This document shows, one piece after another, positions 46,306 to 55,985 of a DNA stretch of 64,000 bases. The notes under the pieces are model-generated. The model was not told where the DNA came from, searched no databases, and worked only from the letters and a program-made list of their open reading frames with translations. The DNA is from Capsulimonas corticalis (GTDB lineage: Bacteria; Armatimonadota; Armatimonadia; Armatimonadales; Capsulimonadaceae). Positions within the stretch are counted from its first letter, which is position 1. Each line of letters opens with the position of its first letter. The stretch is taken from positions 4,092,001-4,156,000 of the forward strand of contig NZ_AP025739.1 of NCBI RefSeq assembly GCF_003574315.2. Direction: 5' to 3'. The position numbers were made by a program, and so were the translations under genes.

Positions 46306-46329
46306 ATCTGCCACAACTGAATTGAAATG

Positions 46330-46597
46330 TGTTGACGAGGACAATGTTACTGCTCGGAGCTTTCAGAGAGCCGTCGCTTGGTGCGAGACGGCAGCGAAGC
46401 GCAGTGAATCTCCCCTCCGAGCAGGCTGTTTGAAAATATGCGCTCGCGCAGATGATTAGGATGGCACGGGGTCGCCCGTGATAGCGTTCCAAGTGCGGCG
46501 TGTATGGCAGGACGGTCTGCGATCTCGTCGAATGAGGGTGGTACCGCGTGAGCTATTAAAAGCCTCTCGTCCCTTACCAGTGGGCGGGGGCTTTTTT
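46330..46597 (+). promoter_or_regulatory. T-box riboswitch and terminator upstream of ilvB
   Basis: Stem I is closed by GCTCGGAG/CTCCGAGC and has the AGAGA-type and GGTGCGAGACGG features. The conserved T-box AGGGTGGTACCGCG is at 46535-46548, followed by the antiterminator partner CGTCCCT and a terminator (stem of about 46561-46573 with 46581-46592, then TTTTTT). The specifier region reads GTGAATCTCCCC just before CTCCGAGC: ATC (Ile) fits best, CTC (Leu) is an alternative. The TGGT bulge fits a tRNA with discriminator A. Uncharged tRNA should stabilise the antiterminator and turn on ilvB. Confidence 0.9.
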
Positions 46598-52745: not shown

Positions 52746-53816
52746 ATGGCGAAGATAGCAGTTTTGGCGGGCGACGGGATCGGCCCGGAGATCATTGCCG
52801 AAGGTCTGAAGGTCCTGAAAGCCGTTGCGCCGCAGCATGGCCAGGACCTGGAGTTCACTGAGGCGCTTGTGGGCGGCGCCGCCTACGACGCCACCGGCCA
52901 CCCGCTGCCGCCGGAGACGCTGGAGCTGGTGCAGAACTCCGACGCCATCTTCTTCGGCGCCGTCGGCGGTCCGAAGTACGATGTGATCCCGGACCCGAAC
53001 ATGCGTCCCGAGCGCGGCGCCCTGCTGCCCCTGCGCAAGAAGCTGGGCCTGTACGCCAACCTGCGCCCCTGCATCCTGTACTCGGCCCTCTCTTCGGCCT
53101 GCCCGCTGCGCGCGGATCTGGTGGAAGGCGGCTTCGACATTCTGGTCGTTCGCGAACTGACCGGCGGCCTCTACTTCGGCCAGCCCAAGAGCTGGGAAGG
53201 CGACAACGCCATCGACACCTGCCTTTACAGCCGCGAAGAGATCACCCGGATTCTGCACGTCGCGTTCAAAGCCGCGCAAAAACGACCAAACAAGCGCGTC
53301 GTCAGCGTCGATAAAGCCAACGTCCTGGAAACCTCTCGCCTCTGGCGCGACACGGCCACCAAAGTCGCCGCTGAGTATCCCGACGTCGAACTCTCGCACC
53401 AGCTCGTCGACGCCACCGCTATGGACCTCGTCCGCCGCCCGCAGTCCTTCGACGTCATCGTGACCGAGAACCTCTTCGGCGACATCCTGAGCGACGAAGC
53501 CGCCCAGCTCACCGGCTCCCTCGGCATGCTTCCCTCCGCCTCCCTCGGCCAGGGAACCTTCGGCCTCTACGAACCCAGCCACGGCAGCGCCCCCGACATC
53601 GCCGGCACCGGAAAAGCCAACCCCCTCGCCACGATCCTCAGCGCCGCCCTTCTGCTCCGCTACTCCCTTGGCGCCGAAGCCGCCGCGCTGCAAATCGAGA
53701 AAGCCGTCGAGATCGTCCTCAACGCCGGCCACCGCACTGGCGACATCGCCGAGACGCCGGACACGAAGATTGTTACTTGTACCGAGATGGGTGATTTGGT
53801 CGTCGCGGCGCTGTAG
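52746..53816 (+). CDS. leuB: 3-isopropylmalate dehydrogenase
   Basis: 356 residues. [11 protein letters not shown] at the start, substrate-binding [27 protein letters not shown], and the metal-binding [22 protein letters not shown]. The NAD motif [18 protein letters not shown] is standard. It oxidises and decarboxylates 3-isopropylmalate to 2-ketoisocaproate. leuC and leuD are not in this window. A perfect hairpin follows the stop codon. Confidence 0.96.
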
Positions 53817-54218
<402 letters not shown>

Positions 54219-54219
54219 T

Positions 54220-54300
54220 ATGGACATGACACACACGACACACCTTGTTATTGGGATCGCGATTTCCGCGGGCATCATGATTATCTGCCCGGCCGGGTGA
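54220..54300 (+). CDS. Isoleucine-rich leader peptide of cimA
   Basis: A 26-codon ORF begins two bases after the PII stop codon and ends before the cimA leader terminator. It has six Ile codons (ATT and ATC), plus Leu-Val next to the first; the middle reads HLVIGIAISAGIMIICPAG. This is what is expected for ribosome-mediated attenuation: when Ile-tRNA is scarce the ribosome stalls at the Ile codons and an antiterminator can form. ATG 54220 or 54226 could be the start; no strong Shine-Dalgarno. Confidence 0.72.
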   Translation: MDMTHTTHLVIGIAISAGIMIICPAG

Positions 54301-54357
54301 CACGCTGCGCGCGCCTCCCCGGCCGGGATATCGGCTTGTGGCGGCGCGCATTTTTTG
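54288..54357 (+). promoter_or_regulatory. Attenuator (antiterminator and terminator) before cimA
   Basis: CCCGGCCGGG occurs at 54288-54297 (end of the leader peptide) and again at 54318-54327; these are mutually complementary and could pair. The terminator stem is TGCGCGC (54306-54312) plus GCC with GGC plus GCGCGCA (54344-54350), followed by TTTTTT. The two folds cannot form together, the classic attenuator design. cimA starts 27 bases after the T-run. Confidence 0.72.
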
Positions 54358-54383
54358 TTTTACACCCGAATAAGGAAGATCCA

Positions 54384-55985
54384 ATGACGGCAAACTCCTC
54401 CTCTCGAAAGATCGACATTTATGATACGACCCTGCGCGACGGTTCGCAGGGCGAAGGCATCTCGTTTAGCGTCGAAGACAAAGTCAAGATCGCGAAGCGG
54501 CTGGACGCGTTTGGCGTGGACTACATCGAAGGCGGATGGCCGGGGAGCAATCCCAAGGACATCGAGTTCTTCGACCGCATGAAGTCGATCCCCCTGAAGC
54601 ACGCCAAGCTCGCAGCCTTCGGCAGCACGCGCCGTCCAACCACGACGGCGGAGACCGACCCGATGCTCCAGCAGCTTTTGGACGCGCAAACTCCGGTCAT
54701 CACGTTTGTCGGCAAGAGCTGGGATTTCCATGTCACGGAAGCGCTGCGCATCCCCCTCGAAACCAATCTGGAGATGATCGCGGACACGACGCGCTATCTG
54801 AAGTCCAAGGGCAAGGAAGTCATCTACGACGCCGAACACTTCTTCGACGGCTATAAGCGCAATCCCGAGTATACATCGAAGTGCGTCGCGGCGGCGCTGG
54901 ACGCCGGCTGCGATGTGGTCGCGCTCTGCGACACCAACGGCGGCACGCTGCCCAATGAAATCTCCAAGATCGTTTCCGAGATCGGCGCGCGCTTTCCATA
55001 CGGCAAATTCGCCATCCATACGCATAATGACGCCGAGTGCGGTGTGGCGAACAGCCTTGCGGCGATTGAAGTCGGCGCAATCCAAGTGCAGGGAACGATC
55101 AATGGGCTGGGGGAGCGGACGGGCAACGCGAACCTCACCAGCATCGTCCCGAGCCTGGGCTTGAAGCTGGGCTATACGCTTTCCTGCATGCCGCGCATGA
55201 AGGAGCTCGCCGAGCTGTCCAACTTTATCGACGAGATCGCGAACGTTCCGCCCAAAACCTGGGCGGCGTATGTCGGACGCAGCGCCTTCGCGCATAAAGC
55301 GGGTCTGCACGTGGACGCCATGCGCAAGAATTCGGAGACCTACGAGCACATCGATCCGATATTGGTCGGCAACGAGCGGCGTATCTTAGTCAGCGAGCAC
55401 AGCGGCGCCTCAACCATTCTGGAGAAAGTCCAGCGCGACAATTCCGATCTGCGCAAGGACAGTCCCGAGACGAAAGAGATCCTGAAGCAAGTCGCGCGCC
55501 TGGAGCACGAGGGCTACTCGTTCGAAGGCGCCGAGGCCAGCTTTGAACTGCTGGTGAAGAAGGCGACGGGCAATTATCGCTCGCTGTTCGAACTGACGGG
55601 ATACCGGGTGATCGTGGAGCGGCGCGGCGGCGACAAGGAAGCGATCACCGAAGCGACCGTCAAGCTGCGCGTGAACGACCAGGAAGTGCTGACTGTTGCG
55701 GAAGGCGACGGTCCCGTGAACGCCTTGGACAGCGCGCTACGCAAAGCGCTCGCCGAGCACTATCCCGACCTGGCCGATATTCGCCTGACCGATTTCAAAG
55801 TCCGCGTGGTCAACGCCAAAGAAGGCGCCGCCGCCAAGGTCCGCGCGATCGTGGATAGCGCCGACTCCTCGGACACCTGGAGCACGATCGGCGTCTCGAC
55901 CAATATTATCGACGCCAGCTGGCACGCACTGGTGGACAGCATCGAATACGGACTTCTGCGCGAGAGCGCCCGCGCCGGCGAATAA
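54384..55985 (+). CDS. cimA: (R)-citramalate synthase
   Basis: 533 residues from ATG 54384 (AAGGAAG upstream); an ORF start at 54297 lies before the attenuator and is rejected. DRE-TIM enzyme: IYDTTLRDGSQGEGISFSVEDK, IHTHNDAECGVANSLAA, and a C-terminal LeuA-type allosteric domain (about 400-533). The GEGISFS and GGWPGSNPKD features are those of CimA rather than LeuA. It makes citramalate from pyruvate and acetyl-CoA, the threonine-independent entry to isoleucine, which fits the isoleucine leader upstream. A terminator follows the gene. Confidence 0.92.
   Translation: MTANSSSRKIDIYDTTLRDGSQGEGISFSVEDKVKIAKRLDAFGVDYIEGGWPGSNPKDIEFFDRMKSIPLKHAKLAAFGSTRRPTTTAETDPMLQQLLDAQTPVITFVGKSWDFHVTEALRIPLETNLEMIADTTRYLKSKGKEVIYDAEHFFDGYKRNPEYTSKCVAAALDAGCDVVALCDTNGGTLPNEISKIVSEIGARFPYGKFAIHTHNDAECGVANSLAAIEVGAIQVQGTINGLGERTGNANLTSIVPSLGLKLGYTLSCMPRMKELAELSNFIDEIANVPPKTWAAYVGRSAFAHKAGLHVDAMRKNSETYEHIDPILVGNERRILVSEHSGASTILEKVQRDNSDLRKDSPETKEILKQVARLEHEGYSFEGAEASFELLVKKATGNYRSLFELTGYRVIVERRGGDKEAITEATVKLRVNDQEVLTVAEGDGPVNALDSALRKALAEHYPDLADIRLTDFKVRVVNAKEGAAAKVRAIVDSADSSDTWSTIGVSTNIIDASWHALVDSIEYGLLRESARAGE

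Follow-up and report, generated by a model that had tools for sequence, protein, structure and literature searches.

The short region between the gene for a P-II family nitrogen regulator and cimA in Capsulimonas corticalis raises the question of how the citramalate synthase gene is controlled in this organism. The locus was examined within a 64-kb stretch of the genome, referred to here as the window; the genome itself (G000) is a single contig of 7.6 Mb. The classical attenuators of branched-chain amino acid synthesis are those of ilvGMEDA, with its leader ilvL, and the Leu leader (RF00512); in the ilvL-type leaders of the enterobacteria the codons are a mixture of Ile, Val and Leu. An earlier note on this DNA had proposed that an isoleucine leader peptide and attenuator precede cimA. 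Judging from the predicted structures and the comparison of genomes described below, it is very probable that positions 54220-54356 constitute an isoleucine-specific, ribosome-mediated transcription attenuator of this gene.

The leader ORF and the RNA structures upstream of cimA

The features of the locus are collected in Table 1. The leader ORF starts one base past the stop codon of the P-II gene and, as the earlier note had read it, carries six Ile codons among its 26 (codons 11, 13, 15, 19, 21 and 22, at positions 54250, 54256, 54262, 54274, 54280 and 54283). When the intergenic region was shuffled with its dinucleotides preserved, a small ORF with at least six Ile codons arose in 13 of 2000 cases, and the binomial probability of six Ile in 25 is 0.005 for the window leader; such chance figures for Ile content alone are suggestive only, and it is conservation in relatives which settles whether the ORF is real. 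A clear Shine-Dalgarno site is absent from the window leader, hence its translation may need reinitiation after the P-II gene, to which it may be coupled.

Table 1. Features of the cimA leader region and of the ilvB T-box, in window positions.
Feature	Position	Strand	Basis
T-box leader before ilvB; specifier CUC (Leu) at 46410-46412	46323..46577	+	RF00230, 101.3 bits
P-II family nitrogen regulator gene, upstream of the leader	53880..54218	+	gene identification; upstream gene also in G001 and G005, not in G003 and G004
Leader ORF, 26 codons, MDMTHTTHLVIGIAISAGIMIICPAG, then stop	54220..54300	+	translation; Ile-rich leader kept in G001, G003, G004 and G005
Block 1, CCCGGCCGGG, predicted antiterminator 5' arm overlapping the last codons up to the stop	54288..54297	+	folding, covariation
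Terminator hairpin (predicted), base GCGCGCC/GGCGCGC	about 54309..54349	+	folding, -29.5 kcal/mol
Block 3, CCCGGCCGGG, predicted antiterminator 3' arm and part of the terminator apical stem	54318..54327	+	folding, covariation
Terminator U-tract TTTTTT	54351..54356	+	sequence
Shine-Dalgarno-like AAGGAAG of cimA	54372..54378	+	sequence inspection
cimA, citramalate synthase (gene under predicted control)	54384..55985	+	TIGR00977, 726.8 bits (cut-off 450)

Block 1 consists of the last three leader codons together with the base preceding them, and reaches as far as the TGA stop. Its sequence occurs exactly twice in the window, where 0.2 occurrences would be expected by chance, and is its own reverse complement, so that block 1 and block 3 are mutually complementary, just as the earlier note had described for the end of the ORF. 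Since the loop of the predicted antiterminator contains the terminator 5' arm, only one of the two structures can form at a time. The terminator and its run of six T were likewise found where that note had placed them, 27 bases separating the U-tract from the ATG of cimA at 54384. Such a distance leaves no room for a promoter, so that expression of cimA should need read-through.

The identification of the downstream gene as citramalate synthase is upheld by a TIGR00977 score well over its cut-off (Table 1). The idea that citramalate is the sole isoleucine route in this genome was unsupported: two ilvA-type matches exceed the cut-off, and citramalate is therefore not the only possible route. 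A T-box in the cimA leader was rejected, as positions 53700-54700 gave no match at E-values up to 5 to the T-box model RF00230, which is marked by a Stem I specifier loop and a GGTGG bulge; over the same region and threshold the Rfam families of amino-acid leaders, those for Leu, Thr, His and Trp among them, gave none either, and the sole Rfam match listed was a sub-threshold sRNA, upstream. Further upstream, between leuB and the P-II gene, an 11-bp inverted repeat, CGTACCGGCCATTTATGGCCGGTACG, was noticed at 53827-53852; it has no proper U-tract.

Conservation within the family

Seven genomes of the family were sampled, and the region upstream of cimA was readable in six. In five of these six an Ile-rich ORF ending in PxG and the stop codon is followed by a complementary block and by a terminator-like hairpin, with cimA directly after. 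Retention of the Ile codons and the terminator in relatives was the comparison which the earlier note had put forward as a check of its proposal; both are conserved, with compensatory changes in the blocks. In the sixth genome, G002, the element is absent and the P-II gene runs almost straight into cimA.

Ile accounts for 6 of the 26 codons in the window leader (binomial P 0.0048), 4 of 21 in G001 (MQYLLIEIAIFAGFTIMSPVG; 0.039), 5 of 19 in G004 (MPKRTLDIAIRIMIIRPTG; 0.0051), 6 of 19 in G005 (MTRISISILSSIIIMRPTG; 0.00075) and 5 of 17 in G003 (MYAFIQIIRSIIRHPAG; 0.0029). The window and G001 have the leader frame and stop position in common, without indels. A G+C-rich hairpin followed by six to nine T is found in four of the five sequences, the U-tract of G004 being imperfect (TTGTCT). 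P-II precedes the leader in the window, G001 and G005; in G004 an acetyltransferase-like gene, itself preceded by P-II, takes this place, and in G003 leuB does. As the upstream gene changes while the element stays, the element goes with cimA.

The helix between blocks 1 and 3 comprises 10 bp, and 96% of its cells are paired across the five family sequences, against at most 62% in a control in which the partner was slid along. Two pairs have changed on both sides (G-C to A-U) and one has changed to U-G. In a set of five related sequences such covariation gives the predicted antiterminator modest, though consistent, statistical support. Four of the sequences (window, G001, G004 and G005) have the terminator 5' base arm between blocks 1 and 3, whilst in G003 block 3 itself forms the 5' arm, which is the classical layout. 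A possible pause or protector (1:2) pairing, CGGGCA/TGCCCG in the window and ACACCC/GGGTGT in G003, is not conserved.

A covariance model built from the five family sequences (R1) was searched against 19 genomes of the class. Each of the five genomes gave a single strong match, immediately ahead of cimA (E 4.5e-14 or better), and there were no further strong copies in the 19, the next best match having an E-value of 0.025; the window's genome has a single strong copy and none elsewhere. Since the five matches are the model's own training sequences, the informative part of this search is the absence of further copies.

Folding with the ribosome in place and a proposed mechanism

For each of the five sequences the RNA under the ribosome was masked, to nine bases past the A-site codon, and the remainder folded. 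In nascent RNA, with the polymerase just past block 3, every one of the five sequences gave an antiterminator pairing probability of 0.5-1.0 with the ribosome at most of the Ile codons and of 0.0 once it had reached the stop codon. Pairing was lower for stalls at the last Ile codons (codon 22 in the window, codons 14-15 in G004 and codon 14 in G005), where a stalled ribosome itself covers block 1; these codons may therefore contribute little. Equilibrium folds of the full-length RNA were mixed, the terminator being favoured at several Ile positions of the window, and the model thus relies on the antiterminator forming first, as the order of transcription allows. Untranslated RNA folded mostly into the antiterminator in four of the five sequences, so that default termination without translation is not predicted for the cimA leader, unlike in the trp paradigm.

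The mechanism proposed is as follows. The polymerase would arrive from the ilv-leu and P-II genes, or from an unseen nearer promoter, and transcribe the leader with a ribosome following on the 26-codon ORF. When charged tRNA-Ile is plentiful this ribosome would reach the stop codon and cover block 1, leaving block 3 to fold into the terminator, and transcription would end before cimA. When Ile-tRNA is short the ribosome would halt on the Ile codons upstream of block 1, which would then be free to pair with the newly made block 3; the loop would trap the terminator 5' arm and the polymerase would read through into cimA. We infer translation of the leader, stalling, termination in vivo with its efficiency and the response to isoleucine from these features.

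Alternative explanations

The hairpin might instead be an ordinary terminator of the ilv-leu/P-II transcript and the small ORF a chance frame, as terminators between genes are common and the shuffled region did occasionally yield an Ile-rich ORF. However, an ordinary terminator so close to cimA would leave that gene no room for a promoter, the Ile-rich ORF and complementary blocks recur in five of the six family genomes with compensatory changes, and the element accompanies cimA past a change of upstream gene, all of which make this explanation highly improbable. It is barely credible that the product of the ORF is not a sensor peptide but a small membrane protein with a function of its own: although the peptides of the window and G001 are hydrophobic, length (17-26 aa) and sequence vary, those of G003 and G004 contain several Arg, His or Lys, and the only fixed part, PxG and the stop, doubles as an antiterminator block.

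Two further explanations accept a regulatory leader and are likewise highly improbable. The signal could be something other than charged tRNA-Ile, such as translational coupling to P-II or general translation speed, which would suit the start of the leader immediately after the P-II stop and the presence of P-II upstream in G001 and G005 also. Yet it is the Ile content that is conserved and not the contact with P-II, G003 and G004 having other upstream genes, and elsewhere in the phylum Ile-reading T-boxes take the place of the device on cimA; we hold a different signal to be very unlikely. The least unlikely of the four, though still very improbable, is that the leader acts on translation of cimA or through Rho-dependent termination rather than by intrinsic termination. 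The lack of a clean U-tract in G004 would fit this, but the other four sequences have the G+C-rich hairpin directly followed by its T run, and the Shine-Dalgarno sequence of cimA lies outside both structures. Attenuation of cimA transcription by a ribosome reading Ile codons thus remains the preferred explanation.

Relation to known attenuators

The cimA leader would be a further case of a known kind of control, ribosome-mediated transcription attenuation. It shares with ilvGMEDA/ilvL and RF00512 a short ORF rich in codons for the product of the pathway, exclusive antiterminator and terminator structures, and a U-tract just before the structural gene. It differs from them in having cimA as its target and not ilv or leu genes, in the dominance of Ile codons, in the position of the terminator 5' base arm within the antiterminator loop (four of five members) and in the lack of an Rfam match.

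In the ilv-leu system of S. aureus a Leu-rich attenuator peptide with three Ile codons precedes ilvD, and the isoleucine input comes mainly through CodY (PMC5794164). The present case would resemble it as leader-peptide attenuation outside the Proteobacteria; the S. aureus operon, too, answers Ile and Leu via separate devices (PMC5794164). For ilvB in Actinobacteria, leaders have been described in which Ile, Val and Leu codons form runs (PMC1262725), and a 2013 survey of cis-regulatory RNA regulons deals with Leu, His, Thr and Trp leaders and T-boxes, with no mention of citramalate or cimA in its text (PMC3766115). The earlier note knew of no described Ile leader on cimA, and our search, which covered the open-access literature and so does not establish priority, likewise found nothing joining cimA or citramalate to leader-peptide attenuation or to a T-box. 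With the cimA leader, attenuation by leader peptides would reach the citramalate pathway to isoleucine and the phylum Armatimonadota.

T-boxes on the same pathway

The earlier note did not include the Leu T-box of ilvB, the Ile T-boxes found on cimA within the phylum or the parallel deltaproteobacterial clade described below. The ilvB T-box is separate from the cimA attenuator and heads the ilvB-ilvN-ilvC-leuA-leuB genes of the window's cluster. Its specifier was read in the register that yields GUC (Val) for the valS T-box (L154), also from this genome. Given the CUC specifier of the ilvB T-box, leucine is probably sensed at the start of the cluster and isoleucine ahead of cimA, and we infer that the two sensors may act in series. 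In another genome of the family, G005, a T-box and a leuA-type gene lie on contig C15 and cimA on C58.

In two other Armatimonadota families cimA is itself preceded by a T-box which reads AUC (Ile), at loci L132 and L016. A third case, L048/L131, has an AUC-type specifier context, AAAATCACCCC, and the motif GGTGGTACCACG before cimA, without an Rfam match at an E-value of 0.001. In three or four Armatimonadota families, then, cimA seems to follow the charging of tRNA-Ile, through one or the other of two devices. The cimA T-boxes (RF00230) act on the same gene as the window attenuator with tRNA-Ile as the signal, but they differ from it in that the RNA structure senses the uncharged tRNA directly, with no leader peptide. 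For hisS, an exchange between T-box and leader peptide has been described (Naville and Gautheret, 2010; PMC2965389). With control by tRNA-Ile charging apparently exerted through either device on one gene in one phylum, such an exchange could be studied on the tree. There is also a use in annotation, where cimA is readily mistaken for leuA and vice versa: either Ile device, leader or T-box, speaks for citramalate synthase function.

A T-box was also seen before a threonine-synthase-like gene (L153, 119-400; G000:C1:5173918-5174199). In the valS register its specifier columns read AUG (Met) and not a Thr codon, a reading made uncertain by an alignment gap at that point.

Ile-rich leaders on cimA in other lineages

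A blind detector, which searches for a small ORF with an excess of any one of the 20 residues and a terminator after it, picked Ile in four of the five family loci, G005 being missed by the cut-offs. It picked Ile in none of 41 other Armatimonadota loci, among which the element was not found outside the family. The corresponding figures were 25 of 30 loci in the deltaproteobacterial clade to which L092 belongs, 2 of 38 in a sample spread evenly over its phylum and 2 of 67 GTDB loci; residues other than Ile were picked in at most four loci of any set.

L092 itself, from a deltaproteobacterial MAG among 80 GTDB cimA loci, has the peptide MKRDTATIIIAGIIIRPEHRSGLMMG followed by a 12-bp terminator hairpin. 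The design is present almost throughout its relatives (at least 25 of the 30 loci), for example as MKINTIIIIINGIIIRPPHIKGLIMV (L171), MKSIIGIIIPIIIDIIGIRPGGVGG (L182) and MAGNMITIIIRPIIIIEGIILVSKT (L160). Its presence throughout the phylum of L092 was ruled out, since among 40 regions of the evenly spread sample it was confined to two, those next closest to L092 (64-65% CimA identity). These leaders resemble those of the Armatimonadota in the Ile-rich ORF and terminator before cimA; however, they show no recognisable sequence similarity to them beyond the Ile codons, and the arms of the RNA differ. As the peptides of the two lineages share nothing obvious but Ile codons, the deltaproteobacterial leaders probably arose independently.

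On balance we favour, with some reserve, a wider view in which cimA is a recurrent target of Ile-sensing RNA devices, attenuators having arisen independently in at least two phyla and been exchanged with Ile T-boxes within one of them, and in which the leucine T-box and the cimA attenuator would act in series to give two-level control of one cluster.

Some further loci were noted. An Ile-rich ORF in a BRC1 MAG (L091) was rejected because a convincing terminator is absent. At about positions 1270-1410 of L101 a leader, MNMNYRVSKNIISIIIINLS, with six Ile, a terminator and a long antiterminator lies before cimA; it may be a third Ile attenuator, but is a lone, unconfirmed example, and its MAG carries the label Candidatus Staskawiczbacteria, an assignment which is doubtful. 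In Abditibacteriaceae-type loci the ORFs upstream of cimA, MTRISARISQPAGLFRRR in L037 (G036), MFRITTRDG in L044 (G060) and MYQESRIIARISKSAVEPVRRC in L039 (G022), have only one to three Ile codons and are followed by terminator-like hairpins before cimA; these are perhaps a weaker or different attenuator. Between the terminator-like hairpin and cimA of L039, at positions 173-251, lies a gene for tRNA-Ile with the anticodon UAU, which is rare in bacteria.
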